A stretch of DNA of 21,700 nt from a virus. The translations under genes and the position numbers were made by a program. Of this stretch, positions 1 to 16,971 are shown one piece after another. Position 1 is the first letter of the stretch; each line of letters opens with the position of its first letter. The DNA lies in IMG/VR virus record IMGVR_UViG_3300037427_001410, positions 1 through 21,700 of that record. One strand, given 5' to 3'. The notes under the pieces were generated by a model, which was given only the letters and a program-made list of their open reading frames with translations, was not told the DNA's origin and ran no database searches.

Positions 1-631
1 TCTCTGAATCAGTTTTGGCACTTACTATGTATTTGTAGCAAGGAATTCCTTTATCATTCAGTCTTTGAATCCCATCTCTAAATGCAGAAAAGATAGGATG
101 TTGTTCTATTGGGCCATCGTGTTCGTATTTGTCCTTCCACAAGTCGTACTTGTTAGCCCATATACCTACTGCGATAGGATAGTCTGCTTCTCGCTTTTTC
201 TTTCTCTTCCCATTGACATTCCATTCAGAAGCACAGATTGTATCTATTAGGAATGTCCAACACAGTTGTTGTTCGATGTCAAAATGCTTGTCCATATGTC
301 TATCATCAATCATAAATATGATGTATCTCACTTTACGACTTCGCATATCATGAATCCAATCATTCCAGTATGTTGTCTGCCCACCGATGTCAGCAGTTTT
401 CACAGTATGTGCATCACCGTCTAACTTGATGTATTTTCTAGAAGCACGTTGTAATCCCACTGTCCTAGTTTTGATATCAGGCACATCTCCTCTAGTTCTT
501 AGTTGATGGTTGAGTGTAGTCTTACCTGCTCTAGTTGCTCCGTAAATTCCAAAGTTTATCGCGTGGACTCTTTGGTATATCTTATTCAGTCCCTCGACAA
601 TCAGTATGGCGAAACCCGCCATCACTGACAT
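1..631 (-). CDS. Arf/Ras-like small GTPase (3' end cut by window edge)
   Basis: Partial gene; 210 residues are readable from an ATG at 631 and the reading frame is still open at base 1. All nucleotide-binding motifs are visible: P-loop GATRAGKT (residues 31-38), a candidate switch I threonine in RTVGL (T57), G3 DIGGQ (81-85) with the catalytic-type glutamine, G4 NKYD (160-163) and G5 SAK (204-206). The TVGL and DIGGQ spacing resembles the Arf/Arl branch (PTIGF...WDVGGQ) more than bacterial Era/Obg GTPases. The N-terminus is hydrophobic (residues 4-15), perhaps a membrane-contacting helix as in Arf, and a lysine-rich insertion lies at 141-147. The start is chosen because GGTGATTG sits just upstream, overlapping the previous stop; an alternative ATG is at 622. 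It follows two small membrane-protein genes at the end of the capsid operon. Expected activity is GTP binding and hydrolysis; the role in the virus is unknown. Confidence 0.88.
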   Translation of the reverse strand, partial: MSVMAGFAILIVEGLNKIYQRVHAINFGIYGATRAGKTTLNHQLRTRGDVPDIKTRTVGLQRASRKYIKLDGDAHTVKTADIGGQTTYWNDWIHDMRSRKVRYIIFMIDDRHMDKHFDIEQQLCWTFLIDTICASEWNVNGKRKKKREADYPIAVGIWANKYDLWKDKYEHDGPIEQHPIFSAFRDGIQRLNDKGIPCYKYIVSAKTDSE

Positions 632-635
632 TCAA

Positions 636-860
636 TCACCACAAGTGGTTCCAGAAATCTACTAAGCCATTCCATGCTATTGAAAGAGTATTGATACCAA
701 GAACTGCCATAGCCTGTCCTATTACAAAACTAGTGAGACAGGATACTGCCCCCCAAAACCAGAACCTAGCCCGTAAGAACCAGATATCAGCAGAGTGCGC
801 TCTTTGTAGGTCATAGGCAAGAGTGGATTCATCCATTCCAAATAGGATTTCGCTGACCAC
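636..860 (-). CDS. small single-span membrane protein
   Basis: 74 aa, starting at GTG (860) behind a purine-rich GGAGTGGTG stretch; an in-frame ATG at 836 is an alternative. I do not recognise the family. One clear hydrophobic segment (about residues 35-59, containing GAVSCLTSFVIGQAMAVLGI) predicts a transmembrane helix, and the C-terminus is tryptophan-rich. The gene starts 13 bases after the stop of another membrane protein and ends 4 bases before the GTPase start, so the three are almost certainly co-translated. It could be a holin-like or membrane-anchor protein, but nothing in the sequence decides this. Confidence 0.7.
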   Translation of the reverse strand: MVSEILFGMDESTLAYDLQRAHSADIWFLRARFWFWGAVSCLTSFVIGQAMAVLGINTLSIAWNGLVDFWNHLW

Positions 861-873
861 TCACACCACTCCC

Positions 874-1287
874 TCACTGATTTTCTATTGTTAAGAAAGA
901 GGGACTAACTCCTTGTTCTTCCGCCTTTATTGTTGGTAGATTGGGGTCACCATACATTGGGGCTATCTGGAAGTTGGTCTGGAATTGCTTCATGGAATCC
1001 TTGACCCTTCTCTTGTTCTGCTCCTCTCTCTCCTTTCTACCCCAATATCCGTCGATTGCTCTCCTTAGTAGGAAATCCTCAATGTAGTCGCTGATGAAGA
1101 CATCGAATAATACCTTCACCATTAATATTGCACCAATCGTACTAACTCCAAATAGGACTGCATGTGCCTCTGCACCATATGGGAAGGATATCCCATATTC
1201 TGCATATGCTAGTACGTTCACTCCGCTTACTGCTCCAACGAACAGTATCGCCATTATCATTCTTGTATCATTTTCTAAACTTGGCAT
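874..1287 (-). CDS. two-span membrane protein with basic C-terminal tail
   Basis: 137 aa from ATG 1287 (GTGATATT just upstream); an in-frame TTG at 1299 would add four residues but is less likely. Two hydrophobic stretches (about residues 7-26 and 42-68) predict a hairpin membrane anchor. The C-terminal half is soluble and charged, with an RKEREEQNKRR stretch followed by a proline-rich end. Family not recognised. It follows the beta-rich 103-aa gene, overlaps no neighbour, and precedes another small membrane protein and the GTPase. The basic tail would be a natural docking face for a soluble partner, which is inference only. Confidence 0.75.
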   Translation of the reverse strand: MPSLENDTRMIMAILFVGAVSGVNVLAYAEYGISFPYGAEAHAVLFGVSTIGAILMVKVLFDVFISDYIEDFLLRRAIDGYWGRKEREEQNKRRVKDSMKQFQTNFQIAPMYGDPNLPTIKAEEQGVSPSFLTIENQ

Positions 1288-1291
1288 AATA

Positions 1292-1603
1292 TCACGCAAA
1301 AGTCACCGTTACTGCACAGGTTCCACTTCCAGTTATCTGAACGTAGAGTCCTTCAGCCGCAATCACCCCATGCATGTCAAATTCCATATTGAATGCGTTA
1401 TTTGCAGTATTGTTCCCAGAAGGAACGTTGATTCTAACTATCTCTAAGTCGCCAGATGTGGTAGTGTCATGACTATCCCACACCTTGACGACATTTGCAT
1501 CTGCATTTACGGAAGTAACGTGTATGCTCACCAGTTTGCATCTAGCGGAAGAAACTACCTTGCTTGCAGATATTACTCCACTGCTTGAACATCCCCCTAC
1601 CAT
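1292..1603 (-). CDS. small beta-rich structural protein (decoration/fibre-like)
   Basis: 103 aa; ATG at 1603 overlaps the stop of the SAP-domain gene (TGATG), so translation is coupled. The protein is dominated by alternating hydrophobic/polar strands and ends with EGLYVQITGSGTCAVTVTF. That ending resembles the small beta-sandwich proteins common in marine viral head genes, in which a 'GLYV.VTGTG..VTV' terminus recurs. No transmembrane segment or enzymatic motif is visible. Its place downstream of capsid and decoration genes supports a virion-surface or head-fibre role. This is a resemblance from memory of a type of protein, not a confirmed family assignment. Confidence 0.65.
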   Translation of the reverse strand: MVGGCSSSGVISASKVVSSARCKLVSIHVTSVNADANVVKVWDSHDTTTSGDLEIVRINVPSGNNTANNAFNMEFDMHGVIAAEGLYVQITGSGTCAVTVTFA

Positions 1604-2115
1604 CAGGCTCCCTCCACTAGCCTCTCAATGAGGTCAGCCTTTTTACCTTCTGTTGATAATCCCCTCTCTTCTAACAGAATTTTCAACTTTGCAACTGTGA
1701 GTTTATCGAGTTTCGGAGGTAGTGGTGCTAGTGTTTTCTCCTCGACTATTTCCTCTTCTACTATTTTCTCTTCTACTATTTCCTCTACGACTTCAGGCTT
1801 CTTTCCGAAGGTCTTCTTAACGAATCCGCCCTTCCTCGGCATTACCTTTTCTCTGATGTTCTTGATGTCATCATCATCCGAGAGGTCTGGGTGATTGCTC
1901 TTGAGAGCATCTAACTTGTATAGTGCTAACCTTGGAAGCATCTTCTCATCAGATTCTGTGAATTCCACAGTAACTGCACTAGCATGTCCCAACATGTTAA
2001 TCGCATATATCAATGGTATTTCCGTACCACTGTCATATCCTATCGTGTATTCAATACCCCCGTATCTACATACAAGGGGTTGTACTCTGTTTTCTCGTAA
2101 CTTTACCATAGCCAT
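1603..2115 (-). CDS. SAP-domain protein of the head module
   Basis: 170 aa, ATG 2115 behind a textbook GGTGAT site. Three parts are visible: an N-terminal globular region (1-100), an acidic linker made of EIVEE-type repeats (about 109-127), and a C-terminal SAP motif (about 138-167) with the pattern LTVAKLKILLEERGLSTEGK followed by KADLIERL. SAP motifs are short helix-turn-helix-like folds that bind DNA. In a capsid operon this suggests a head-completion or DNA-contacting virion protein, with the N-terminal part perhaps holding the capsid. The gene lies after the 119-aa decoration-like gene and a strong RNA hairpin. The SAP call is secure from the pattern; the role is inference. Confidence 0.8.
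   Translation of the reverse strand: MAMVKLRENRVQPLVCRYGGIEYTIGYDSGTEIPLIYAINMLGHASAVTVEFTESDEKMLPRLALYKLDALKSNHPDLSDDDDIKNIREKVMPRKGGFVKKTFGKKPEVVEEIVEEKIVEEEIVEEKTLAPLPPKLDKLTVAKLKILLEERGLSTEGKKADLIERLVEGA
1745..1789. repeat. three tandem 15-bp units inside the SAP gene
   Basis: Three adjacent 15-base units beginning ACTATTT(C/T)CTCTTCT on the plus strand differ by only a few bases. They encode the glutamate/isoleucine/valine linker (EEIVE-like repeat) between the N-terminal part and the SAP motif. This is a likely length-variable linker produced by slippage. Confidence 0.75.
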
Positions 2116-2188: not shown

Positions 2189-2548
2189 TCAAAGAAGCCC
2201 GAATACTCGGACTCTTACCATGTTGACTGTTGTGGCTCCGTTAGCGGTGGCCGCACCAGTTGACATAATGGTGGAGTGAAGTTTGAAGGACGTTCTGGAT
2301 TCATAGTCCCCAGTCGCACTAACTTCACAGTGTACGCTATCTACCACTACATTTGTGCCAGATTCTTCCCTACCAGTAATCATTACTTGATGTACGGTAG
2401 ACAGACCCAAAGCGGATGCGTTTACTACAACTCCACCAGTCTCGTATGCAGTGATGTTGCAAAGCGCATCAACATAGTACTCATCAGCACTGACCTTGGG
2501 GCCACTGAAGCCCTTATGGTCAGGGATTAAAGTAACAGTTATTGCCAC
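2189..2548 (-). CDS. probable capsid decoration or minor head protein
   Basis: 119 aa from GTG 2548, preceded by a strong GAGGTGG site 9 bases after the capsid gene stop. The sequence is beta-rich and small-residue-rich with no charge clusters, typical of a virion surface protein: strands such as GGVVVNASALG and TNVVVDSVHCEV alternate with short loops. The position directly behind the major capsid gene is where tailed viruses usually encode their head-decoration protein. No family motif is recognised. It could instead be a head-completion protein. Confidence 0.6.
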   Translation of the reverse strand: MAITVTLIPDHKGFSGPKVSADEYYVDALCNITAYETGGVVVNASALGLSTVHQVMITGREESGTNVVVDSVHCEVSATGDYESRTSFKLHSTIMSTGAATANGATTVNMVRVRVFGLL

Positions 2549-2557
2549 TTAACCACC

Positions 2558-3943
2558 TCACGCACTCTTTAGGTTGGTTATCTTACCCTGTCCCTTGAAG
2601 AAGGAACAAGCAGTCTCGCCCATCGTGCGGTATAGCCCTTGGTTACCCAACTTGCCAACACCGAATGGGTTGCCGTTGGAGATACCATCCTCAAAGTACT
2701 GAGTTGGCTTCATGACTGATAGCCACAGGTGGTCCGTGTCTAGAATCATTATGTCGCTTAGGGTGTTCGTGACCGTAGATGCGCTGGTCGACGGCATGTC
2801 CTTTGTTGGGATGATGGGTATGTCGTAGTAGGTTGCTACGCGGAAACCGACTTCAGCACCCTTTGGACCCCTAACTCCGTTGTGGGTTGGGACAACTTCC
2901 TTCCTGTCCATGAACCTCTCTTGGCTCTGTAGCAGGTCAGAGATGTGCTGAATAGTGTCGTATCCAGTTAGCATTACCTTTGGACTTCCACCGTTCTGCC
3001 TTAGTCTCCTAATCATGTCGTTTAGTATCGACAGAGTTAGGACTCTTGCGTTAGGGGCGGCGTAACTTGTACCGTAGTCAACCTCTGCGTCTAGGAAAGA
3101 TGCAGTGGATGCCACGCTCTCGCTACTGTCCGAACCAGTGATGGTAACAGTCCTTACAGACCCGAAAATCTGCGTTAGGTCTGTTAGGTCGTCATCGGTT
3201 GGGTCGCCAGCATCGCCCTTGCTGATGTTGGTCAGGTCGTTAGACCACATGTCAGCAATCTCTGCGGCTGATGATACAATCTTGTGTAGCGAAGTGTAGT
3301 TCCTCTCCACGTTGGTTGCGCCACTCTTGTCATCGTATGCCTCAAGGGGTAGTAGAAGCATCTTGTTCTGAGACTCAGCGTGGTGCTTGCCCATGTCCTC
3401 ACGGACAATAGCCCTGATGTCACCAACACCGTCGTCAATAGCGGCTAGTTCCATACCGAGTTCCGAGAACTCAAACTTGTGAGCCACGGTCTTCGGGCTA
3501 ACGTAGAGTTTCGCATACTCAGGAGACAGAGCGGGTATGTTGCTCAATGCCTCGTTCTCAGGTACTCCACCAATTAGGTCAGCCTTTGGTGAGGCGGAAC
3601 CTGCGGCTCCTGCTCCAACTGCGAAGGTGCTTCCAGAGCCACCTTGTGGTCGGCTCTTTAGGACTCTCCAACCGCTAGAGGTGTAAGGCCTCTTAGCAAT
3701 CATGGACAGTGCGTTAACCTCTTGGTTAAGCATTGACCATACCTTCTGTCCGTAAAGGACGTTGTATAGGTCGCCTAGTCCAGTAGCCCCAGTAAAGGGA
3801 TTACCTTCTGTGCTTGTTACATCGTGGGGAGTTCCGAACCCTCCAACAATACCTGCGCTCTTCATAAGAGCATCACCCTGACTTCCACGAAGTCCGTAGG
3901 TAGATGCTTCTAAGTCTTTCATCGTTCTAATATATCCAGTCAT
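2558..3943 (-). CDS. major capsid protein (HK97-fold type)
   Basis: 461 aa, ATG 3943 behind TAAGGAG (which overlaps the stop of the protease gene). The call rests mainly on gene order: it directly follows a prohead protease/scaffold and precedes a decoration-like gene, as in HK97-type head operons. Length and composition fit: few cysteines, glycine/alanine/serine-rich loops, a helical segment near residues 180-205 (possible spine helix) and a late beta-rich region. The N-terminal ~50 residues may be a removable delta-type domain processed by the upstream protease. No single diagnostic motif exists for this fold, so the assignment is by context plus general appearance. Confidence 0.8.
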   Translation of the reverse strand: MTGYIRTMKDLEASTYGLRGSQGDALMKSAGIVGGFGTPHDVTSTEGNPFTGATGLGDLYNVLYGQKVWSMLNQEVNALSMIAKRPYTSSGWRVLKSRPQGGSGSTFAVGAGAAGSASPKADLIGGVPENEALSNIPALSPEYAKLYVSPKTVAHKFEFSELGMELAAIDDGVGDIRAIVREDMGKHHAESQNKMLLLPLEAYDDKSGATNVERNYTSLHKIVSSAAEIADMWSNDLTNISKGDAGDPTDDDLTDLTQIFGSVRTVTITGSDSSESVASTASFLDAEVDYGTSYAAPNARVLTLSILNDMIRRLRQNGGSPKVMLTGYDTIQHISDLLQSQERFMDRKEVVPTHNGVRGPKGAEVGFRVATYYDIPIIPTKDMPSTSASTVTNTLSDIMILDTDHLWLSVMKPTQYFEDGISNGNPFGVGKLGNQGLYRTMGETACSFFKGQGKITNLKSA

Positions 3944-3957
3944 TTTTCATCAACTCC

Positions 3958-4641
3958 TTAATTTCCCCTCGTCAGGTTGTGAATGTCATCCCATGACATC
4001 TCTGCGGCTTCCTCAACAGTAGTTGGGTAGCCTTCAGGGATACCAAAGGCGACTTCAGTAGCCTTACGAATATCATCATCTTTCTCGGTAAGAGACTTGC
4101 GTAGTTCTGCAAACTCAGCCTTTAGTCCGGCAACATCGACGCGAGCATCATACTCTGCTCTCTCAGCAGTGGACTTCCTAACAGATAGTTCCTCTTGGAA
4201 CCTGTCAGCAAAAGTCTTGCTTAGGTTGTCGTATGCCATTCTCTCTAGTTGCTCGGCCTTGAACGCCTCATATGCCTTCTCGACATTATCGTGCGTCAAG
4301 TTGAGGGTAGTGAAATCACTGTCCTCTAGTCCCTTGCTAACAGAGAGGGCCTTTGGAGTGGACTTTGGGTTTCCGTTAGTAACTACTTCCTCGCCAGCCT
4401 CGTTTCCTTCAGCCTCGGTAGGTGCGTCATCTCCGCCGGGTAGACCTTTCTTCTCTTCGTCCATCTCGTCATCCTCCTTCATCTCCATGTCTTCCATCTC
4501 ATCCTCGGACTCCATTTCGTCGTCGCCCTTGTATGACATGTTTTCCATATCGCTTTCTTCTTCATCTTCCTTGTGGATTTGTCCAACTTGCTTCATCAAA
4601 TCGTTCAACTCCTCAAGTGCTTTTTCCAATTTTTCACTCAT
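3958..4641 (-). CDS. scaffold protein from internal in-frame start
   Basis: An ATG at 4641 inside the protease gene, in frame, is preceded at 7 bases by GGAGGTGA, the strongest ribosome binding site in the window. It would give a separate 227-aa scaffold (MSEKLEKALEELNDL...) containing the acidic stretch, coiled coil and C-terminal MSWDDIH peptide without the protease. Nested scaffold genes of this kind are known from phage lambda (C/Nu3). The site is directly visible; actual use of it is inferred. Confidence 0.6.
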   Translation of the reverse strand: MSEKLEKALEELNDLMKQVGQIHKEDEEESDMENMSYKGDDEMESEDEMEDMEMKEDDEMDEEKKGLPGGDDAPTEAEGNEAGEEVVTNGNPKSTPKALSVSKGLEDSDFTTLNLTHDNVEKAYEAFKAEQLERMAYDNLSKTFADRFQEELSVRKSTAERAEYDARVDVAGLKAEFAELRKSLTEKDDDIRKATEVAFGIPEGYPTTVEEAAEMSWDDIHNLTRGN

Positions 4642-5166
4642 TTTATTTTCACCTCCAACATCTCTTTTCAAAATGTCGAATTTTGCTTCTGGGTTAATTC
4701 CTTTTTCACAGATTGTAACTTCATGTAATTCCAAACGGTCTATCTCGTTGTATTCTCCATGTTCGTCAGATGTTCTCTGCTTCTTAGAAATTGCTTGCCC
4801 TCCTATACTAAATGACCTAAGTGTTCCTTTTCGGATTCCTCTTGAAATTTCTTTTGCCTTCTCTATGTCATCTCTCATTTTGATTACGACATAGAACCCA
4901 ACGTCATCTACTGCGGTCTTGTGTAGATTTCCGTTTTTGTCTCGATATTTCTCGATTACCTCCCCGACTTGAACATTTGAATGGTTTGACATTACATTCC
5001 TGTACTTCTGTTCTCCCATGTATTGCTTTACGGCTTTGTCTAATGCACTAAGAGTAATTAAGTCGTTTTGCTTATCGACCATTTCTATTGACGCATATCC
5101 CCCTATGACTAATCCATCTGATTTTAGAATTGTAAACTCGTTGTTGTTTTCTGCCTTTAGTAGCAT
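3958..5166 (-). CDS. prohead maturation protease fused to scaffold
   Basis: 402 aa from ATG 5166; an in-frame TTG at 5199 would add 11 residues, but a TATA-like box at 5207-5213 favours 5166. Residues 1-170 match the HK97-type prohead serine protease. The histidine lies in NVMSNHSNVQVGEV (H62), the serine in LRSFSIGG (S120), and the family's closing element is ELHEVTICEKGINPEAKF. Residues about 200-245 are an intensely acidic Asp/Glu/Met stretch, followed by a helical coiled-coil region (about 285-370) typical of scaffolding protein. The C-terminus ends MSWDDIHNLTRGN, a peptide shared with other proteins here. The protease should cleave scaffold and capsid termini during head maturation. The scaffold half also has its own internal start. 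Confidence 0.88.
   Translation of the reverse strand: MLLKAENNNEFTILKSDGLVIGGYASIEMVDKQNDLITLSALDKAVKQYMGEQKYRNVMSNHSNVQVGEVIEKYRDKNGNLHKTAVDDVGFYVVIKMRDDIEKAKEISRGIRKGTLRSFSIGGQAISKKQRTSDEHGEYNEIDRLELHEVTICEKGINPEAKFDILKRDVGGENKMSEKLEKALEELNDLMKQVGQIHKEDEEESDMENMSYKGDDEMESEDEMEDMEMKEDDEMDEEKKGLPGGDDAPTEAEGNEAGEEVVTNGNPKSTPKALSVSKGLEDSDFTTLNLTHDNVEKAYEAFKAEQLERMAYDNLSKTFADRFQEELSVRKSTAERAEYDARVDVAGLKAEFAELRKSLTEKDDDIRKATEVAFGIPEGYPTTVEEAAEMSWDDIHNLTRGN
4649..4656 (-). promoter_or_regulatory. internal ribosome binding site for scaffold
   Basis: GGAGGTGA on the minus strand, fully complementary to the 3' end of archaeal 16S rRNA, 7 bases before the in-frame ATG at 4641. It also encodes Gly-Gly-Glu of the fusion protein, in the linker right after the protease domain. 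Confidence 0.6.
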
Positions 5167-5206
5167 ATCTCCTGAGAGTAACACTCCCAAAAATTTCAAC
5201 TCTTAC

Positions 5207-5216: not shown

Positions 5217-5256
5217 AATATGCAAAATCAATTAGGAAGTTCTAATTTTGCATATT
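5217..5256 (-). promoter_or_regulatory. 12-bp inverted repeat at ligase 3' end
   Basis: Perfect 12-base arms (5217-5228 and 5245-5256, AATATGCAAAAT and its complement) flank the ligase stop codon with a 16-base spacer; three more base pairs can form inside it. It could be a terminator-like hairpin ending the upstream transcript or an operator next to the TATA-like box at 5207-5213. Confidence 0.5.
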
Positions 5257-7819
5257 TATCTTTAGTGATATCCCAAACATTCTCATCAGAATCTAATTCT
5301 AACATATCTTGTTTCTTACCTGTCCACACTACCCAAGACTTCTGTTCATCCAACGGAACCATTCTCACATGGAATCTAGTATCGAACTTGTCTCCCTTGA
5401 TTCTATATTCATGATAGCCATCTCTCTGAACTCCTAATTCGACCTCACCCGAATCTATCTCCTTTCTATGTTCGCCTAAATCCTTGCCGACTATAGCCGG
5501 ATACTTAGCAGACTTTCCAAATAGGTCATAGACATCATCTAGTTCTGTAATGTCAATCATCCAGAAATTCCTAGACTCTCCTAGTTTTAGAATGAAATCC
5601 AAATTCTCATCTTCCCTTAGCATGATACTGAAACTTCCAGAATCAACCTTGGAAACCTCTGGCTCTTCTACGTCCTTCTCCAAGACATCATCCAATGCGG
5701 TGAACTTGTTAGGGTGATGGTATTTGAGACTCTCTTGTTCCTTCAACCAACTCATCAACATATCATCCGAGGAATCAAACACATCAGCAAAGACCTCTGG
5801 ATACTCTTTCTTGGTGAAATCAACTATCTTACCAAATGGAGTTTTCCTGTTATCGTATGTCTCGATGATTTCATTACGAATCGCTATTCTAAGTTCGGAC
5901 CTTCTAGACTTGACAAGTTTCTCCATCTCAGTCTTCCAAACGTCTATGTCGTAGAGCGCATTCTTCGCCATCAGAGAATCACCATTGAACCCGTAGATTG
6001 TGAACCCATCAAATTCGCTCTTCGCGATTATCTCCGCATTGCCGTGTATGCCATCCGTGATGAAGAATCCCTTCTTGACCTTCTTACCATTAGTCTGAGT
6101 AAGCCCACTGACTAACTTGTATGGGTTCAGACTACTGATGGCCTCTCCTGCATCAGATGCTAGAGATTTCCTAGTCTTCGTAGCGAGTTGCTCCAATGTC
6201 TCTACCTTGTCAGATTGGTCGACTTCTGGTATCTCTATGAGTTTGGCAGAGTAAAGGGTAAATCCTTCTTTGTTTTTCTTTACCTCATCCACCTTGACTC
6301 GGACAATACTACCGACATCCACGTTCTCCTTCGTATTCAGTGCCTTGCCAACAGGAAGGTATTCCTTCTCATCATGCTCTGTTGTCTTGTAAGTTCTAGC
6401 AACTTCAGCACTGACTGGCCCAACCCCTAACGAATATGATTTCATACCACTCTTGGTTGTCTTCTTCTCTAGAACAATCACATCAAGGTCAACGAACTTC
6501 TTCCACTTAATCCACTTAGGGTTCTTCCTGTTACCTATGTAATAGGTCGATTCCAAATCCTTGATAATTACTCCCTCTGAAGCAGGTAGTTCCATGATGT
6601 CCTTGGCATACTCACCAACCTCCTTTATCGAATCTGCCATTCTAGTGTCCTTCTTAGATGGGAATGCCAGTTGCTCAGAGGAGTGTTGACTGAACTGATA
6701 GAGAAGAGTATTGATTCTCTCTCGCAATGGCTCACCATGCATGTCATTCCCCTCATGGTGCATGATGTCGAAAACATGCGCTCTTAGTTGTCCTCCTTTC
6801 TTCTTCTTGAATACATGTGTTATGGTGTCTGCCCGATGAAGAGGCTCATCACCATCAAACAAAACTAGTTCTGCATCTAGAATGCAATCTCCGAATTGCT
6901 TCTCCTTTAGTTTCTCTATCTGGTCCTTGCAAGCATCTGAGATATCCTTCTCATTGTAGGAGTATGCCTTGATGCTCTTACCCTTCTTATGGAGTTGTAT
7001 CCGCATTCCATCATACTTCTCTTGGACTAGGTAATCTCCTGAGAACCCCTTGAGGGCCTTCATGTCATCAATCTCAAAAATCCGATACATTGGTTTGTTG
7101 GGTACTATGAAATCAATCTCGGCCTTTTCCTCATCACTCTTCTCTGCTTTTTTTATATCGACTTCCAGAAGGTTGTCCCACTTAGGCTTCTCGTATTCTC
7201 TGAGAAACATATCCTTGAGTGTCTTGAGTGCATTCTTGACTTTGGATTCTATTCTCCTGTTATCCTCGTCTTCCTTGCCATAATGCTCTATGATGTATAG
7301 TGACAAATCATCCTCATCCAAATCCAATCCCATGAAACCATTGGTTATTTCATCCGCATCTAGATTCTTAGTGTCCCATACCTTATCTGGCAATGCCTTG
7401 GAATGTGACCGCAATGCATAGTGCAAGAAGGCAATAAGAACAGATTCGTTCTCTAGCATAGTGGGTATGACATCATCTTCACCGAACTTCTTTGAGAATG
7501 GGTCAGTGACCTTCTCGGACCTGAACCTCATGTCCTTTACCGCTTCAAACAAATTCTTCGCTTCAACGGATTGTGGCTTCTTGGCCCCATCATCGAAAAC
7601 CAACTTCTCATCAATATAGTCCTTCAACTCAGATGAGAAGTCGCTCAGAGAATCATACTTGTCTTTGATATGTTCTACACTATCCGCCCAATCATCAGAA
7701 TACTCCGATGGGTTGTTTCTAGCAGACAGGTATGCGTATCGGACTTTCTCAAAAAAATCCAAGACCTCTTTGGTTAGGTCTTCAGTCTCTTTCTCAAATT
7801 CAAGTCCTGATATGGGCAT
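5228..7819 (-). CDS. ATP-dependent DNA ligase with large N- and C-terminal extensions
   Basis: 863 aa, ATG 7819. The nucleotidyltransferase core is clear: motif I EKYDGMRI with the adenylated lysine K268, DAELV (315-319), motif III VFDIMHHEG (about 349-357), motif IV EGVIIK (415-420) and motif V KWIKWKK (435-441). It is followed by an OB-fold region to about 530 (GSIVRVKVDEV). It should seal nicks in duplex DNA using ATP. The usual archaeal/viral enzyme is about 550-600 aa. Here ~260 residues precede motif I without an obvious match to the standard DNA-binding domain, and ~330 residues follow the OB fold. The last ~130 residues (FSIMLREDENLDFILKL... then KSWVVWTGKK) faintly resemble the LigD phosphoesterase fold but without its histidines; this is tentative. 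Its position between head genes is unusual. Confidence 0.92.
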   Translation of the reverse strand: MPISGLEFEKETEDLTKEVLDFFEKVRYAYLSARNNPSEYSDDWADSVEHIKDKYDSLSDFSSELKDYIDEKLVFDDGAKKPQSVEAKNLFEAVKDMRFRSEKVTDPFSKKFGEDDVIPTMLENESVLIAFLHYALRSHSKALPDKVWDTKNLDADEITNGFMGLDLDEDDLSLYIIEHYGKEDEDNRRIESKVKNALKTLKDMFLREYEKPKWDNLLEVDIKKAEKSDEEKAEIDFIVPNKPMYRIFEIDDMKALKGFSGDYLVQEKYDGMRIQLHKKGKSIKAYSYNEKDISDACKDQIEKLKEKQFGDCILDAELVLFDGDEPLHRADTITHVFKKKKGGQLRAHVFDIMHHEGNDMHGEPLRERINTLLYQFSQHSSEQLAFPSKKDTRMADSIKEVGEYAKDIMELPASEGVIIKDLESTYYIGNRKNPKWIKWKKFVDLDVIVLEKKTTKSGMKSYSLGVGPVSAEVARTYKTTEHDEKEYLPVGKALNTKENVDVGSIVRVKVDEVKKNKEGFTLYSAKLIEIPEVDQSDKVETLEQLATKTRKSLASDAGEAISSLNPYKLVSGLTQTNGKKVKKGFFITDGIHGNAEIIAKSEFDGFTIYGFNGDSLMAKNALYDIDVWKTEMEKLVKSRRSELRIAIRNEIIETYDNRKTPFGKIVDFTKKEYPEVFADVFDSSDDMLMSWLKEQESLKYHHPNKFTALDDVLEKDVEEPEVSKVDSGSFSIMLREDENLDFILKLGESRNFWMIDITELDDVYDLFGKSAKYPAIVGKDLGEHRKEIDSGEVELGVQRDGYHEYRIKGDKFDTRFHVRMVPLDEQKSWVVWTGKKQDMLELDSDENVWDITKDKYAKLELPN

Positions 7820-8862: not shown

Positions 8863-11619
8863 CTAATTACTCTTCTTGTTACTCTTCTCTTTGAGTTGTT
8901 GCATTGCCAAATTCTCTAGTTCCTCAATTGGCATCTTAGGATTCTCCTCTCTCAACTCTGCTATAATCTTCTTTTTTCTTTCTGATATGGCCTTTGGTGT
9001 AAAGTCAGTTTTCTTTCTGCGTCTTCGTTTTGGCCCACTCTCAAATTCAATTGGGTCACCTTCTTCAGCATATTCTTCTGGATTATCATATATCGCTTGC
9101 AATTCATCCGCATGCTTTGTAATTGTCTTAACCAATTCGTTAAACTCATCGATTGAGGAATTTTTATATTTTCCTTCCACTTCTTTCTCAGCCTTCTCAA
9201 TAGAACCATCCAAATCGAAATCTGCTTTCTTAGCGTGTGTCTGTAGCGAATCTTCCAGTGAACCTCTGAACGGGGATTTCTTATCAGCCACATTTTCTTT
9301 ATCCTTTGAGAAGGATTCATGGATTTTCTGGGTTTTCTCAAATATGGGTGCTACTCTTGATTTAGTTTTCTCAATGGCTCTATCCCATTGTTTCTGTCTA
9401 CGCTTCTCTTCCTTTTCCTCATGTGCTTGCAACTCTCGGAAGTCCATACTTGACAAGTCTATTTTTGGAATTTTCAAGGCTTTCTTGAGGTCAAGTATTG
9501 CTCTATCCAGTTGGTTGTTGAGAACTTTGAATTCACGAAGTGCCTTTTGTCCCACCGAGTTTTGAATGCTCACGTTGTAGTAGGCAACAAGATTAGCAAC
9601 AGTTTCTAGTTGTGAATGTATTATCTGTTCTCCACCTTTGACTTTTCTACGCTTATCAAGCAAGACCTTGATGTTGTCCTCTATCTCATCCTCTAAGAAA
9701 ATCAAGTTCTTTCTAACTGTATCATAATTGGGGTCATTCTGAATGAGTCTGTCAATGGTGAATTTTCTCTCCAATTTATCTTGGTCTTTCTTAGATTCCT
9801 GTAGGAAGTTCACCTTTCTTCTAGCAACATCCAACTCCTTGATTTTTCTCGGTGGCCTCATCTCGTCCTCACCAGAGATTTCTATCAAGTCCTTCATCAT
9901 CTCAGTTGCCTCTCGCCCGCGAGCATCTTCCCTAATGACTGGATTCGTCCATGAACCACTAACCCAAGTACTGTCTTTAGTAATGAATAAATCAGTTAAA
10001 CCATCATCTTCATCTGGCAGTTTGCCTTTGAAGAGTAGTTTTCTCAAATTCTCCCTTAGTTTATTTGGGATTTCCTCATATGCATTAACTGCTATTCTCT
10101 GCTTCTTAACAAGTTTAGCACTCTTAATATCACCAGAGTCCGGTGTGGCTTCATATTCAGCCATTCTATTCAGGGCTTGTTTAATTTTGTTAAGGGACTC
10201 CTGCCTCGTCTTACCCTTAACGTTGAATTCTATGAGTATGTCTCTTCCCTGATTGAAATCCTCACGCAAGTCCTTATCCTTTATCTCAGTCTCCTTGGTG
10301 ATTATACTGATGCCCTTCACTCCGAATTCCTTACTCAGATACTTCTTGATTTCGGTTATCGCCTTTCCTTTACTGTCGATTTCAACGATATCATAGTGGC
10401 GTTTCAACCACTTATCTCTTTTCTTGTTATAGAGTGCGCGTAGCAAATCGTTATACTCTTCAACCTCATTCTTCAATAGGATTTCATCTTGGTTTTTGTC
10501 TCTAGCATCTACGAACTTCTTACGCAAGCCTCTATCCCTTACCCAACCACCGATAACAGTATATGCTCTTTGGAAGGTCTTTTCACCATCCTTTTCCTCT
10601 GTTAATTCCCCACCTGTTGGTAGCGTAGACCCTGATAGATTGAGAAATATCAATTTCGCGACTCTATCTCTCTTCTCATCCACTTCGTCTTGAGGGGGAG
10701 AGAGTTGCTTACGACTCATCTCCTCAAATAGTTCCTTCATTGACTCATTCTTAACGAGCATCTCTGCTAGTTTCTTAGATTGGTATTGGGATTTCAACTT
10801 CTTAGAATTGTATACCTCTGGATTCCTAAACAACTCACTCAGTTTCTTCTCAAAATCCTCAACCACAACTGCACTGTAGTTAAGATTTTTTTCGCCGTTA
10901 GCATCCTTGGGGCCTTCTTTAATTGCATCTTCTACAGCAGTAGGAAACTCTACGCCAAAAGTAGTAACATAATCATCCCAAAGTTCTTTTTCGTTCTCAA
11001 ACTCGTCTTTGAACTCTTGATGCTTTTTCTTTCGCTCTTTGAAATCCTCGGCAGATTCTCCCTTCTCCTTCTTAGGTACTTTCAGAGCCTCCTTGGAATA
11101 CTTGTCCTTGTATGCAATATCCATGACACCATCCTTATCCTCAAGGTAATCATAGTCCTTGGCCTTCACGGTTGGAAATTTCTTATCCGCGCCTTTAGTA
11201 TGCTTAACCCACGCTTTCATCAATTGGGTTCTACTGATGACATCATCATAGTCGATGGTAACATCGTTCATAGTCAAGTCAACGGCATCAGGTTCGTCAT
11301 CAAACAATTTGTCTTGGGTAAGAGTCAATTTACTACGGGACGGATACTCTATCTCTTTCTCAATCTTATCTTTCAACTTGTCATACTTCTTTTGGAATTC
11401 AGGGGGTATTCTCACCCTACCACTGATAATCTCATTCATGAATGGGGCAGACTTTCCTGCGATGTAATCCCTAGTCCAAGTATCCATTCTCTTTTTTAGT
11501 TCAGCATCGAATTCCTTTCTCTTTGCACCTGACAACTTTTTGATTTTTGCTCTGATGTTTTCATTCAACCTTTCCTTCTCTTCTTCCTGCTCTTCAATGG
11601 TGGCCTTCAGAAGTAGCAT
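8863..11619 (-). CDS. very large charged coiled-coil head protein of unknown function
   Basis: 918 aa from ATG 11619, chosen because GGTGAG is 5 bases upstream; an in-frame GTG at 11628 is an alternative. It has extreme Lys/Glu content with long helical, coiled-coil-like stretches throughout. Some possibly globular sections lie in between (around residues 430-480 KGISIITKETEIKD... and 545-580 LFITKDSTWVSGSW), with a basic cluster KRRRRKK near the C-terminus. No enzymatic motif or membrane segment is visible. It follows portal genes and precedes small tagged proteins. Candidate roles are an internal head or DNA-ejection protein or a large scaffold-like organiser. Tape-measure is less likely, since tail genes are absent and it lies within the head region. 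Confidence 0.7.
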   Translation of the reverse strand: MLLLKATIEEQEEEKERLNENIRAKIKKLSGAKRKEFDAELKKRMDTWTRDYIAGKSAPFMNEIISGRVRIPPEFQKKYDKLKDKIEKEIEYPSRSKLTLTQDKLFDDEPDAVDLTMNDVTIDYDDVISRTQLMKAWVKHTKGADKKFPTVKAKDYDYLEDKDGVMDIAYKDKYSKEALKVPKKEKGESAEDFKERKKKHQEFKDEFENEKELWDDYVTTFGVEFPTAVEDAIKEGPKDANGEKNLNYSAVVVEDFEKKLSELFRNPEVYNSKKLKSQYQSKKLAEMLVKNESMKELFEEMSRKQLSPPQDEVDEKRDRVAKLIFLNLSGSTLPTGGELTEEKDGEKTFQRAYTVIGGWVRDRGLRKKFVDARDKNQDEILLKNEVEEYNDLLRALYNKKRDKWLKRHYDIVEIDSKGKAITEIKKYLSKEFGVKGISIITKETEIKDKDLREDFNQGRDILIEFNVKGKTRQESLNKIKQALNRMAEYEATPDSGDIKSAKLVKKQRIAVNAYEEIPNKLRENLRKLLFKGKLPDEDDGLTDLFITKDSTWVSGSWTNPVIREDARGREATEMMKDLIEISGEDEMRPPRKIKELDVARRKVNFLQESKKDQDKLERKFTIDRLIQNDPNYDTVRKNLIFLEDEIEDNIKVLLDKRRKVKGGEQIIHSQLETVANLVAYYNVSIQNSVGQKALREFKVLNNQLDRAILDLKKALKIPKIDLSSMDFRELQAHEEKEEKRRQKQWDRAIEKTKSRVAPIFEKTQKIHESFSKDKENVADKKSPFRGSLEDSLQTHAKKADFDLDGSIEKAEKEVEGKYKNSSIDEFNELVKTITKHADELQAIYDNPEEYAEEGDPIEFESGPKRRRRKKTDFTPKAISERKKKIIAELREENPKMPIEELENLAMQQLKEKSNKKSN

Positions 11620-11628
11620 ATGTCTCAC

Positions 11629-11856: not shown

Positions 11857-11983
11857 TTTTCTTCCTCCATTTTTTGCTTTCTTTACTCATCTTTAGAAAT
11901 TCTTCTAGTCTCTTATCTGTCTCTGCATTCAATTTGTCAATCTCTTCTTTCCATTTCCTTGCCGTTTCAAGAAGGTCGCTCAA
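11849..11983 (-). CDS. 44-aa coiled-coil micro-ORF after portal
   Basis: Starts with TTG at 11983 overlapping the portal stop by 4 bases (TTGA) and ends inside the start of the next gene. The translation is a highly charged single helix with hydrophobic heptad positions (LLETARKWKEEIDKLNAE, then TDKRLEEFLKMSKESKKW). It fills the only gap between portal and the 75-aa gene exactly, and its composition matches its neighbours, which argues that it is real. The non-ATG start and the lack of a strong binding site reduce certainty. Confidence 0.6.
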   Translation of the reverse strand: MSDLLETARKWKEEIDKLNAETDKRLEEFLKMSKESKKWRKKNE

Positions 11984-13638
11984 CCTACCCGCCTCTCTGT
12001 TCGCCTATCGACATTACGATTACCTGCTTCCTTTGGTAATCCTGAGAATCGCTTGTCTGGACCCTCACTCATACTAGGTTTGTTTCTGCCTTTCACAGTA
12101 GCGGGTTTTCCTGCTTGCTCGGCGGTTGGTCTTGTTCCGGCTTCCATCATTTGACCTAATTGTGATTGGTCGATATCCGTACCTGCGTATGGGTCCAACT
12201 CAAATTCACCTTCTGCACCTTCCTGTGCATTAGGGTCTTCCTTTGGTTCTGGTTTGTAGTAAGTGAATCTACCGTCATCATCCATATCTACCTCAAAGCC
12301 TAGATTCTTGATAGCCCCAGCAACGTTGACTTCTATCTCTCGCTTCCTCAATTTTGCAATCTCATCCTCCTCCTCTGATGGGGGCAACTTGAGATTCCAA
12401 TCACTGATGCCAAACTCTAGAGTCATGAATGGGAAGACGTAGTTATTCCAAATCGTCTGTGCCATCTCAACTGCTCTGTTGGTTACGAGTATTTGCATGC
12501 CCTCGTTATTCAACCCACCACTAGCAGAGTTGTCTGCCATGAAGATTTTACTGACTCCGTAGAATGCGGCAATCCTATCCCGCAAGTCTTCCTTGACAGC
12601 AATGTAGTCCATCTCCTTCAAGGTATTCATGAAGTTAATCCACTCAACAGAACCCTTTCCATTCTCTGCCTCTATTCCCATAACGGGAATGAAGTGGGGG
12701 TCTTGCTCAATCTTCTCTTTGACCCCTCGCCAAAATGACTTCATAGAATCGATGTTCCTAGTTTGCACTGCTAACAATCCCCTTGGCATTCTTGCCTTGG
12801 TGTATGATGAATTGACGTAATTCTCCATAGCCATTAGAGTAGTTACGTTATTCCACAATGTGATTATGGGTGATGTACCATAGAGCCTAGAAGGTGAGTA
12901 CTTGCTGAAGTGCAATACTTCTCCCTTGACGAAATACTGTTCCTCTCCATTCACCCTATTGACGTAGTGAACAGGGAACATGGCACTACCACAAACCTCA
13001 CAATTCTCATGCTTGTCCTGTGCGAGTTGGTTTCTATGGCGTAGGCATGTGAATCCCTTGATGCCCCTTTGCCCAACGTCATCTGTGTATAGGTGGAAGG
13101 TAACAGGGTCACCTCTGTATATCTCCTTGATTCTATGCATCTTGATGCAGTTATTGTTATCCAAGTAGTATTCCTTTACCATAACCAAGTAAGCATCATC
13201 GATTATGTTCAAGTCATCTTCCAATTCTTTCAATACATCAATGAATAGTTGCTCAGACTTGTTGACATGTTGCTCTAAGAATTGATGAGCGTATTTGAGT
13301 TGGGCCTTGTCTGGCTTTCTCAAATCAGTAGAACCACAGTCTGCACATTCCTTAACTGGACTCTGATGCTTGTTCCCGCAGGAATTGCATTGGGCTACGA
13401 ACGCCTCTTCCCAGATGTATCCTCTCCTGAATATCTCCTGCTTCAACTGAGTAGTACAAGTTCTAACGATAGTAGATTGCTTTGCTAGGTTGTAGATGAT
13501 GGGAGTGGTTAGGAAATATGACGTATCCTTTTCCTGAATCCCCGGATTGAATATGGTTCTATCCTCTGGTTTCGGTGTGGTATCCCTAAACAGCCTTGCA
13601 ATTGAAAATCTTCTCTTCTTTGGTTCTGGTTCTACCAT
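11980..13638 (-). CDS. portal protein with zinc-ribbon-like insertions
   Basis: 552 aa, ATG 13638 overlapping the upstream stop by one base (TAATG), with GGAGTTGTGG upstream. Portal hallmarks are VLHFSKYSPSRLYGTSPI (about 241-258), the long helix with NNVTTLMAMENYVNSSY, and RIAAFYGVSKIFM followed by GLNNEGMQ (about 355-383), as in HK97/SPP1-type portals. Unusually, two cysteine clusters interrupt the N-terminal half: C84/C87/C98/C101 (CNSC...CADC) and C198, H201, C213/C216 (CLRH...CEVC), both suitable for zinc binding. The portal dodecamer is the DNA gate at the head vertex and docks the terminase. The C-terminal ~100 residues are acidic then basic and probably flexible. Confidence 0.88.
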   Translation of the reverse strand: MVEPEPKKRRFSIARLFRDTTPKPEDRTIFNPGIQEKDTSYFLTTPIIYNLAKQSTIVRTCTTQLKQEIFRRGYIWEEAFVAQCNSCGNKHQSPVKECADCGSTDLRKPDKAQLKYAHQFLEQHVNKSEQLFIDVLKELEDDLNIIDDAYLVMVKEYYLDNNNCIKMHRIKEIYRGDPVTFHLYTDDVGQRGIKGFTCLRHRNQLAQDKHENCEVCGSAMFPVHYVNRVNGEEQYFVKGEVLHFSKYSPSRLYGTSPIITLWNNVTTLMAMENYVNSSYTKARMPRGLLAVQTRNIDSMKSFWRGVKEKIEQDPHFIPVMGIEAENGKGSVEWINFMNTLKEMDYIAVKEDLRDRIAAFYGVSKIFMADNSASGGLNNEGMQILVTNRAVEMAQTIWNNYVFPFMTLEFGISDWNLKLPPSEEEDEIAKLRKREIEVNVAGAIKNLGFEVDMDDDGRFTYYKPEPKEDPNAQEGAEGEFELDPYAGTDIDQSQLGQMMEAGTRPTAEQAGKPATVKGRNKPSMSEGPDKRFSGLPKEAGNRNVDRRTERRVG

Positions 13639-14963
13639 TATGCCACAACTCCTTCTAACTTATCCATCTCATTCATCATACAATTATCATGTAGTTTGGC
13701 TACAGTGTCGATGTTGATGTTGTACTTCCCAAAGTCATATCTTACATTATCCTTGTGATTCTCGTATTTCATCAACTTGAACAGTTCATCTTTCCTATTC
13801 ACGTACCATTCTGCCTTCTTGTGGGATTTCTTCATTCGTAATAATTCAAGTAGAATCTCAGCATTAGCCTTCTTCAACTTCAGATGTGGTAAGCACTTTG
13901 TCAGAATCTCACCAACATCTGCCGCAGAGTAGAAGTTCAGTCTGTTCACTGGTCTGGTATCTTGAGGAGATTTCTGGTCTAGGTGTAGTCTACCACAACC
14001 TAGGGACTTCTTCATCTCTAGCATGAAAGCCTTACCACGATTGCCTGTTGCGATTAGACCGACTCTAGGGTTGTAATTCTTGTCCATCGTGATGTAGCCA
14101 TCCGAGTCTATGAAGGCCGCAGTGTATGCGTAGATGTCCTTCTTTATCTCATCATTGAATTTGTAGAAGGAACCATCAACGTTAGTTATCTCCTTACCTA
14201 TGGCAATCTTGGATATTATACTAGGGGAAGTCTTCTTGAAGAGTCTCTTAGGTAATCTCTCATGAATCTGCCTTGAGGAGATTCCGGGTTCTTCAACGAC
14301 ACATTTCAAGATATGGTCAGCAATAGTCTCCTTTTGGCTCTTTGATATTTTCATGTTCTTGATGCTATTCTTGAATTTTCTTTTGATACTAGTCATATCC
14401 TTAGACAACCTAGCATAATCTACTCCGAAGTCTACGTCTTGCCTGTCTAATTTAGTCTCCCAGAACTTGCATAGCAAGTCGATAGTATCTCTTCGCTGAC
14501 CCTCTGTTGAAATTAGTGATAGTTTAATCAAATCCGTTTCAGTACAATTCATCTCCTTAACAAGAGGCTTGTACTTAGAAACCCAGTATATGTCATCGAT
14601 AGAAGAATCTAGATGGTCTGCATATGCCTTGATTAGATTGTCAATGGAAAGTGTGATTGCCTTCTTCTCATCTCCCTTCAGGGTTCTCCTGAAATCTCTA
14701 AGGCTCTTTACCATGTCTGGTATGTCCTTGCCTTCAATCTCATATTTCTTGACGTTGGTAGTCAATTCCTTCTTGGCATCGGAAAGGGATATCTCAAAGG
14801 TCTTGGCGTAGTCCTTCTCTATTTGGGTATGGTCATTGGTGGGTTGAGCAACTAACCAACCTTGCTTGAGTTCATCAGTAAGTGCTTCCTGCTCATCTTG
14901 AAGTTCCTTTACTTGGTCAGCGACTTGGGCGGCTTGACGTAATTTATCTCCTTTTTCGCTCAT
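13638..14963 (-). CDS. LAGLIDADG homing endonuclease-like protein with winged helix and unknown N-terminal region
   Basis: 441 aa, ATG 14963 behind TAGGTGAG. The N-terminal ~200 residues are helical and of unknown function, opening with a coiled-coil stretch (VKELQDEQEALTDELKQ). Residues about 209-268 look like a winged helix (ETIADHILKCVVEEPGISSR, then QIHERL). A LAGLIDADG motif at 278-290 (AYTAAFIDSDGYI, with D286 and D288) begins a single endonuclease domain containing VGLIATGNRGKAFMLEMKKS and LKLKKANAEILLELL. It should cut or bind DNA at a specific site. It sits between terminase and portal and is not an intein, since both neighbours are intact. It is likely a mobile or co-opted endonuclease fused to another protein. 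Confidence 0.82.
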   Translation of the reverse strand: MSEKGDKLRQAAQVADQVKELQDEQEALTDELKQGWLVAQPTNDHTQIEKDYAKTFEISLSDAKKELTTNVKKYEIEGKDIPDMVKSLRDFRRTLKGDEKKAITLSIDNLIKAYADHLDSSIDDIYWVSKYKPLVKEMNCTETDLIKLSLISTEGQRRDTIDLLCKFWETKLDRQDVDFGVDYARLSKDMTSIKRKFKNSIKNMKISKSQKETIADHILKCVVEEPGISSRQIHERLPKRLFKKTSPSIISKIAIGKEITNVDGSFYKFNDEIKKDIYAYTAAFIDSDGYITMDKNYNPRVGLIATGNRGKAFMLEMKKSLGCGRLHLDQKSPQDTRPVNRLNFYSAADVGEILTKCLPHLKLKKANAEILLELLRMKKSHKKAEWYVNRKDELFKLMKYENHKDNVRYDFGKYNINIDTVAKLHDNCMMNEMDKLEGVVA

Positions 14964-14971
14964 TTTCTCAC

Positions 14972-16414
14972 CTAATAAAAGTTCATGCCAACTACTCCGT
15001 CGAGAGGATTGTTAATTGTTGTTGCGGGGTCATCGAAAATCTCCATATCATCTAATAACATGAAAACCTCCCCTTGGTGTTGCGATGCCGCGTTAGCCAG
15101 AGCGAGGCTCATTACCATGTCATCGTGCGCCCCCACACCTTCAAATCTACCAGCACTAGTTATTGAGAACATAGACAATTCCTCAATCAGCATGTTACTG
15201 ACCCTCTTACTCGCAGTGTCGCCATATGGGAAATTCATTTTCTGATTCTCAATGTTCATTTGCAATGCCAGAATGATTTCCTGTTTGTTCTTCCTAGTGG
15301 TATTGAAATCTCTCACATTCAAATCTGATACGCTTCTCAATTCCTGTGTGAATGCCTTGGCAAACGTGTTAGTCTCGTAGAGAATTTCTTCGGGTTGGAA
15401 TATCTGACCAATGAGTTTAATCTTCTCGATGTTCTCCCTGAACTCTACGTTCTTGGCTCTATCAACATGAACAATTGTCTTGTTCTTATTCTCATCTACT
15501 TCCAGCACAGTAATTACATTGTAGTCCCCATCCGTGGAGATAGCAGGGTCGACTCCCACATAGTATCTGTATCCCTTGTCTCGACGGTTTCCTAATTTCA
15601 AAACAAAGTCCTTGTTCTTACAAGCCTGAACGAAATCTGGATTGAACAATGCAGTACCAGTGGAGATTGGAACACATAGGTATTCTCTTGTAAACTTGAG
15701 AGAACCAATCTCGGCCTTTCTTTGCATGAGAGCATCATACGCCCAACGCTCAGGCCAGAGTGGTTCGTTGAGTGAATTGAGACAGGGGTACTTCTTCACT
15801 GAATATGCCTCGTTCTCTTCCAACTGTGCGAATATATCGGTGTAGGTAAACGGAGTTCCAATCATTCTTAGATTTGAGGTGTGGTGAAGTGTGGGTATCA
15901 TATCACCGAAGAACCAATCAGTGACCTTTTGAATTCCTGAAATGCTGAACTCCTTCAAAGGGTCGTCAATGATAATCTCCTGCGGGTGAAGACCACGAAT
16001 CTGAGAACCAACTGAACGCTCAAGTATTGCATTACCATTGGTCAGTTGTATGTTCCCAATAGCCCAACCCCTAGTGGGTTTGTATTTCTTCAATGCTGGA
16101 TGGTTGAAGTACCTGTCAATCTCTCGCATGTGAACCAGAGTCTGCTTTTGGTTCGATGAGATGTATAGCATCTGAAATGGAGGCTCTTGGAATACTAGGT
16201 TCCATACTACCCAACAATGCATGAAGACTGATTTACCGTGGTCCCTACTACAGATGATAACGGTCCTATCCGTGGTATGCATAGAATCCAACCACTCTTG
16301 CATGTATGCGGGAAACATCATACCGAGTACGTTCTTGAAGAAGTATGGGAACGATGTCTTTGACATCTCCATATCCATATCGGACATGAAATCCATGCCC
16401 TCTAGTTCTGTCAT
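14972..16414 (-). CDS. terL: large terminase subunit (packaging ATPase-nuclease)
   Basis: 480 aa from ATG 16414, which overlaps the previous stop as ATGA; an in-frame TTG at 16435 is less likely. Walker A is CSRDHGKS (residues 55-62), Walker B EIIIDD (146-151) and the coupling motif MIGTPFT (184-190). The C-terminal RNase H-like nuclease shows YVGVDPA (D289), YETN (E347) and the closing AHDDMVMSLALA (D431/D432). All acidic metal-binding positions are present, so the motor should be active. It translocates viral DNA into the procapsid through the portal and cuts the concatemer. No clear small terminase subunit is adjacent. Confidence 0.95.
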   Translation of the reverse strand: MTELEGMDFMSDMDMEMSKTSFPYFFKNVLGMMFPAYMQEWLDSMHTTDRTVIICSRDHGKSVFMHCWVVWNLVFQEPPFQMLYISSNQKQTLVHMREIDRYFNHPALKKYKPTRGWAIGNIQLTNGNAILERSVGSQIRGLHPQEIIIDDPLKEFSISGIQKVTDWFFGDMIPTLHHTSNLRMIGTPFTYTDIFAQLEENEAYSVKKYPCLNSLNEPLWPERWAYDALMQRKAEIGSLKFTREYLCVPISTGTALFNPDFVQACKNKDFVLKLGNRRDKGYRYYVGVDPAISTDGDYNVITVLEVDENKNKTIVHVDRAKNVEFRENIEKIKLIGQIFQPEEILYETNTFAKAFTQELRSVSDLNVRDFNTTRKNKQEIILALQMNIENQKMNFPYGDTASKRVSNMLIEELSMFSITSAGRFEGVGAHDDMVMSLALANAASQHQGEVFMLLDDMEIFDDPATTINNPLDGVVGMNFY

Positions 16415-16971
16415 ACCTTCAACCCCATGAACCAACTATCTGCATATCTGACTAACAACTTCCTGACTGCTTCTGAAGAACTTCCCTTTGCATGCAGACG
16501 CTCGATGGTATCAACAACATCTTCTGGTACATCCTCCTGACCGACAACAGTACCATCCTCATCGAATTGAACATCAGAGAAACCAGCACCATTGAAGATG
16601 GATTTTGATTTTTTATTTGCGAATATCACGAATGGCTTGTCACCATGCATGCTAACGACATGATTGGCAACTGCTTCGCCCGCTCCCCCAGTTTCTTCCT
16701 CCGGCAATCCAGTCTCAATACCGTAACTCGCTAACCCAGCACCGAGATACACGTTCTTCCATTCGCCCACCCCATGAACTGCGATTGGCTTGTTCGACTC
16801 CGTGTGATAGGCAACCCAATATTGAGGGTTCTTCATCTGTTCAAATGGTGAACCTACCAAGAGGTTGTATCTCTCTGGCCTTCTCTTGTAGTATATCCCA
16901 TGCTTGTCGAATATGTCATAGACATCTGCTTCGGAGTATGGTCCTCTGAAGTCATTGTCTGAGTATGCCAT
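16411..16971 (-). CDS. GNAT-like acetyltransferase-fold protein
   Basis: 186 aa, ATG 16971 behind GGTGAG. The arrangement of residues ~50-131 follows a GNAT fold: strands WVAYHT and KNVYLGAGLAS, a GAGEAVANHV turn-helix where acetyl-CoA pyrophosphate would bind (about 96-105), a strand PFVIFAN, and KSKSIFNGAGF, like the conserved 'N..A..LYE..GF' end. Possible activity is acyl transfer from acetyl-CoA to a protein or small molecule. The C-terminal ~45 residues are an extra helical tail. It overlaps the terminase start by four bases, so it is co-translated with it. The fold assignment is from pattern only. Confidence 0.55.
   Translation of the reverse strand: MAYSDNDFRGPYSEADVYDIFDKHGIYYKRRPERYNLLVGSPFEQMKNPQYWVAYHTESNKPIAVHGVGEWKNVYLGAGLASYGIETGLPEEETGGAGEAVANHVVSMHGDKPFVIFANKKSKSIFNGAGFSDVQFDEDGTVVGQEDVPEDVVDTIERLHAKGSSSEAVRKLLVRYADSWFMGLKV

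Follow-up and report, generated by a model that had tools for sequence, protein, structure and literature searches.

A predicted Ras-like small GTPase is a core gene of tailed viruses that probably infect ocean archaea

Tailed viruses that are probably viruses of ocean archaea carry, shortly after their major capsid protein (MCP) gene, a gene for a protein that, judged by its motifs and predicted fold, belongs to the Ras-like small GTPases, with no narrower family assigned. It is a core gene in these viruses, as constant as the capsid gene itself, and it lies within a block of five genes whose order is kept in two virus clades. Small GTPase switches are a hallmark of eukaryotic membrane traffic, and in viruses they are found mainly in the giant viruses of eukaryotes. 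The gene was recognized at the edge of a 21.7-kb linear fragment from IMG/VR, which is called the window here (Table 1).

Results

The GTPase gene, its motifs and its predicted fold

The GTPase ORF (631..2 on the minus strand) begins with the ATG at 631, stays open up to the contig edge and reads MSVMAGFAILIVEG...SAKTDSE. Its complete relatives are 13–14 residues longer and end in MVYRGxxTMIKDY followed by the stop codon; therefore, ~13 residues are absent from the window copy. Followed leftwards through these relatives, the gene proves neither broken nor chimeric, both of which are excluded by the intactness of the relatives and by the same placement in 57 of 57 capsid loci.

The five G motifs that the earlier note had read by eye are confirmed: none of 200,000 shuffled versions of the protein contained the ordered set, and it is conserved across the relatives, with Asp81, Gly83 and Gly84 invariant and Thr57 nearly so in the family alignment. 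That note had also pointed to a catalytic-type glutamine at residue 85, the equivalent of Gln61. This is not a conserved feature of the family. Among distinct clade-1 proteins the residue is Gln in 54 and Glu in 65, and in clade 2 it is Gln in 51, Glu in 18, Asp in one and His in one; with Glu as common as Gln in clade 1, residue 85 is therefore not a conserved catalytic residue. The hydrophobic N-terminus, in turn, is upheld, with a predicted helix over residues 2–22 and a mean Eisenberg hydrophobicity of 0.55 for residues 1–18. The helix is not clearly transmembrane (TM), the median maximum being 1.46 on the Kyte–Doolittle scale.

An AlphaFold2 model built with 60 family members (pLDDT 83.8, pTM 0.81) has a 21-residue N-terminal helix followed by an alpha/beta G domain. 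Foldseek matched the model to 1,522 PDB chains at E ≤ 1e-3, and the top 50 were almost all Rab, Ras and Arl; the best of these structure matches reached E 4e-9 with a TM-score of ~0.6–0.75 on the target, at an identity of ~15–18% to known GTPase families in the structure alignments. In the viral structure library, the top 50 matches came from eukaryotic large DNA viruses wherever the organism was named. Thus, the predicted fold is a Ras/Rab/Arf-type G domain of the TRAFAC class.

Profile searches place the protein no more finely. All 22 relatives scanned match TIGR00231 (small_GTP), at best with E 1.5e-5 and below the family cut-off, and the Pfam families Roc, MMR_HSR1, SRPRB, Arf and Ras score alike, at ~1e-4 to 1e-5 at best; among the matches listed, no Pfam family reached its cut-off. 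The combined two-clade profile, run against PDB sequences, retrieved H-Ras, Rab33B and 8oun at E 2e-4. The protein had earlier been described as Arf/Ras-like, of which small and Ras-like stand and the Arf family does not. It shares with Arf, Arl and SR-beta a DxGGQ-type G3 in the window copy, a hydrophobic helix before the G domain and weak Pfam matches. Unlike Arf and SR-beta, however, it lacks Gly2 (it starts MSVM), has no Trp before DxGGQ (TADIGGQ) and does not conserve the Gln. With these motif differences and with Pfam cut-offs missed for both Arf (20.9 bits versus 22.3) and SRPRB (20.9 bits versus 25), membership in either family is rejected.

Table 1. Features of the 21.7-kb window
Feature	Position	Strand	Basis or remark
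Small Ras-like GTPase, first 210 of ~223 residues	2..631	-	3' part cut by contig end
Hydrophobic N-terminal helix, residues 2-22, candidate membrane anchor	566..628	-	AlphaFold2 helix and hydrophobicity
G1 P-loop GATRAGKTT, residues 31-39	515..541	-	dominant variants in both clades have GxxxxGKTT
G2 Thr57, switch I, in RTVG	461..463	-	RT ≥90% conserved in family alignment
G3 DIGGQ, residues 81-85	377..391	-	Asp and both Gly invariant; Glu in place of Gln in about half of clade 1
G4 NKYD, residues 160-163	143..154	-	NKxD in every distinct protein of both clades
G5 SAK, residues 204-206	14..22	-	SAK in clade 1, ATR in clade 2
74-aa protein (1TM), hydrophobic segment residues 38-56, Trp-rich C-terminus	636..860	-	
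141-aa protein (2TM), 2 (to 3) hydrophobic segments, charged helical tail	874..1299	-	
103-aa protein, variable; possibly capsid decoration	1292..1603	-	
170-aa protein, C-terminal SAP domain	1603..2115	-	Pfam SAP 6.3e-11
119-aa protein after capsid gene; possibly decoration	2189..2548	-	
Major capsid protein, HK97 fold, SU10/HVTV-1 type	2558..3943	-	SU10_MCP 2.8e-8; phrog_24667 1.4e-22; haloviruses
Prohead protease (S78)	3958..5199	-	Pfam 8.4e-11
ATP-dependent DNA ligase	5228..7819	-	Pfam 6.1e-29
Portal protein	11980..13638	-	phrog_18178 1.4e-63; haloviruses
Terminase large subunit	14972..16435	-	phrog_38 1.3e-54

Spread and conservation

A scan of viral contigs with the window GTPase gave 70 relatives, 68 of them aligned over essentially the whole query. 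By profile scan, complete homologues were found in at least 386 IMG/VR contigs (clade 1), and a second clade, ~33% identical to the first and seeded with a divergent homologue from a MAG of mixed content, was found in at least 170. The total is therefore above 500 contigs, some of which are perhaps fragments of the same viruses. The protein is 219–224 residues long in clade 1 and ~238 in clade 2.

For the closest MCP relatives, a sample outside which the more distant viruses lie, the GTPase gene was present in all 57 loci having at least 3.2 kb downstream of the capsid gene, where it stands 1.4–2.2 kb past the MCP stop codon. Compared with the window, the GTPase of the relatives declines from 94 to 59% identity and the MCP from 83 to 58%, and the three small genes that follow the MCP drop to ~22–50%. 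The dN/dS of the GTPase against close relatives is 0.015–0.05, with synonymous sites saturated in several of the pairs. The GTPase thus evolves as slowly as the capsid protein and is under strong purifying selection.

Beyond viral contigs, tblastn of plasmids with the GTPase gave nothing significant, and the scan of cellular genome contigs returned only two, both in a Maricaulis-labelled MAG (G022) that also held the clade-2 seed. In this MAG are at least three contigs (L072, L073 and L234) from viruses of the present archaeal type, most likely through mis-binning.

The operon and the five-gene block

In longer relatives, the gene order is protease, MCP, 119 aa, SAP, 103 aa, 2TM, 1TM, GTPase, Cys/His and 234 aa, followed by a hypervariable gene, the adaptor, genes of 70 and 175 aa, the tail tube (Pfam Phage_tube_2, 5e-17), another 119-aa gene in a chaperone-like place and a tape-measure-like gene, these last two being named from position and look only. 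Contrary to its earlier placement, the GTPase gene therefore does not close the head operon; it lies in the middle of a morphogenesis operon and looked terminal because the contig ends there. The hypervariable gene, third past the GTPase, ranges from ~260 to 1326 aa among relatives (L097:12079–14028, L077:12088–15015 and equivalents), and its neighbours are constant in length.

Five of these genes form a conserved block: the two-TM protein, a TM protein of 71–77 aa, the GTPase, the Cys/His protein and the 234-aa protein. In clade 2 the block again runs 2TM, 1TM, GTPase, Cys/His and ~213 aa, although the genes upstream are different. In profile comparisons between the clades, homology is found for the GTPase (E 2e-61) and for the Cys/His protein (94%, 1e-7), and the 234/213-aa pair gives a suggestive match (55%, 1e-4); hhalign gives a weak match for 1TM (21%) and none for 2TM (0.2%). 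For the two TM proteins, homology between the clades is thus not demonstrable, and the block is defined by their order and hydrophobic segments, TM assignments being by hydropathy only and the 1TM segment being marginal in some members, especially those of clade 2. The predicted model of the Cys/His protein (pTM 0.51) gave no structure match.

Within the window, the 1TM gene stops 4 bases ahead of the GTPase start, and the 2TM gene probably starts at an ATG near 1287. The gaps of 4 and 13 bases along 2TM, 1TM and GTPase suggest one transcript.

Further observations concern the rest of the window. For a 441-aa ORF (13638–14963, minus strand) in the terminase–portal interval, Pfam gave nothing meaningful; judged by eye alone, its C-terminal part (AFIDSDGYI) resembles LAGLIDADG. 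The terminase–portal genes are flanked by those for three very large, charged proteins (8863–11628, 16976–19474 and 19476–21353, all on the minus strand), which are without meaningful database matches. A motif centred on Trp appears repeatedly at the ends of proteins, at ORF starts near 21353, 8841 and 8515 and at ORF ends near 3958 and 8075 (minus strand). The N-terminal forms are MSWQTILKAD, MNWQDILKAD and MSWKKIMKEED, the C-terminal ones SWDDIHNLTRG and DWEDIHKIVETM, and clade-2 viruses have N-termini like AWSLLKE and AWQILKTE. The motif is possibly a capsid-targeting or scaffold-binding tag.

The viruses and their hosts

The MCP and portal are nearest to those of Druskaviridae and of viruses of Methanomassiliicoccales and Methanofastidiosa. 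Each of the 32 record entries tested has a family B polymerase, which most clade-1 records encode in two pieces; a split polymerase of this kind has been reported in Aoguangviridae, a magrovirus family (PMC10768690). A genome of ~90–110 kb with a family B polymerase characterizes the order Magrovirales, and these viruses agree with this description; they likely belong to that order, with Poseidoniales hosts. A chaperonin was present in 11 of 20 records (9/9 in clade 2 and 2/11 in clade 1), and archaeal primase gave a weak Pfam-level match in two. MCM and PCNA, which are reported for Aoguangviridae, were each found by Pfam in 0 of 20 records, a search by which divergent versions may be missed. 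ARAGORN reported no tRNA over the loci examined, and there is therefore no clue to the host from tRNAs.

The nearest isolates are the Druskaviridae HVTV-1 and HCTV-1, which have homologous MCP, portal, adaptor and tail tube genes in the same order; the adaptor and tail tube, also identified by profile match to the HVTV-1/HCTV-1 proteins, reach E values down to 1e-22 and 2e-22. They differ, however, in having a four-gene interval after the MCP, in which a single TM gene takes the place of the marine viruses' block. No GTPase was found in HCTV-1 (in a search without positive control) or in the MCP–adaptor interval of HVTV-1. The Druskaviridae TM protein (110 aa, phrog_24068, function unassigned) is encoded just ahead of the adaptor (L391:15650–15982 and L235:16203–16532). 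Profile comparison does not support it as a homologue of the two-TM protein.

Discussion

A core GTPase gene of this kind was absent from the prokaryotic-virus databases searched: INPHARED phages gave no match to the GTPase of either clade, and PHROGs gave no convincing family. In the open-access literature searched, we found nothing pairing magroviruses with a GTPase, with an annotation inside the tables of the central magrovirus papers being possible.

Two known groups are instructive for comparison. The Rup proteins are prokaryotic single-domain Ras-superfamily GTPases of up to 240 aa with no MglB partner, and those of group 1 are likewise without the G3 Gln (PMC4316618). The viral protein is similarly a single G domain of no more than 240 aa with Ras-like G1–G5 motifs, and, in contrast to what would be expected of MglA, no Pfam match to MglB/roadblock was obtained among the neighbours scanned. 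By the definition in PMC4316618, rather than by a tree, it would sit among Rup, from which it differs in being a core gene within a fixed gene block. Giant viruses also carry Ras/Rab genes (PMC11915834), and those of mimivirus (Rab, 5xc5), Pithovirus and Tupanvirus share with the present protein a virus-encoded Ras-type fold. They belong, however, to eukaryote-infecting viruses, are ~10–20% identical and are not shown to be fixed in a capsid operon. The mimivirus Rab gene is reported as acquired from eukaryotes, and a virion-membrane role proposed for its product is cited there (PMC11915834).

What might the viral GTPase do? Our leading proposal, to which we give roughly even chances, is that it is a membrane-associated GTP switch that works late, with TM partners, in assembly or egress. 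We infer that it would be produced together with the virion proteins and would probably be held at the host membrane in two ways, by its hydrophobic N-terminal helix and by the TM proteins of the two genes just upstream. There, it would hydrolyse GTP and alternate between GTP- and GDP-bound states, in a putative complex with the TM, Cys/His and 234-aa proteins, and so may control a late membrane step, which could be either the tethering and assembling of proheads at the membrane or the remodelling and opening of the envelope for egress. A late, membrane-linked role had been suggested earlier from the supposed operon end; that placement has gone, and the role persists as the most economical reading of the hydrophobic helix and the virion-gene setting.

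Other roles can be envisaged. First, the block adjoins the head genes, and its products could therefore be virion parts, with the TM proteins carried in the particle and forming a pore in the host membrane at entry, and with the GTPase helping to load them or the genome. The clade-1 block indeed sits between the capsid and adaptor genes, and the capsid, GTPase and adaptor genes are in fixed order; the strict G motifs, however, argue for an active switch rather than a structural part, and we consider this role unlikely. We know of no small GTPase that serves as a virion ejection protein. Second, and similarly improbable, the GTPase could imitate a host small GTPase of polarity, secretion or division and titrate its regulators, as its single-domain Ras-type fold and the Ras/Rab genes carried by giant viruses (PMC11915834) would allow. 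Against such mimicry, the gene evolves slowly, belongs to the core and stays with a conserved block in each clade, which is not the usual behaviour of an accessory takeover gene, and the genome-contig scan, which reaches close relatives only, gave no host homologue. Third, an assembly chaperone that binds GTP as a scaffold and hydrolyses it very slowly would fit the Glu that about half of the clade-1 proteins and a quarter of those in clade 2 have at the Gln61 position, and is nevertheless very improbable, given the invariant Asp81, Gly83 and Gly84, the nearly invariant Thr57 and the fact that Q61E Ras still hydrolyses GTP.

Returning to the membrane-associated switch, its broader form, in which tailed archaeal viruses have evolved a five-gene, GTPase-driven membrane machine that governs capsid assembly or release at the membrane, is a tentative proposal that we hold to be rather less probable than the switch itself. 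To our knowledge, no machinery is known for a membrane step of assembly or release in most archaeal tailed viruses. The GTPase block offers a concrete possibility for how viruses whose archaeal hosts lack a peptidoglycan wall may assemble at, or exit through, the membrane, and the proposal is testable with five genes. For tailed viruses, a Ras-like GTPase no less constant than the capsid protein, in widespread marine prokaryotic viruses, would represent a new core function.
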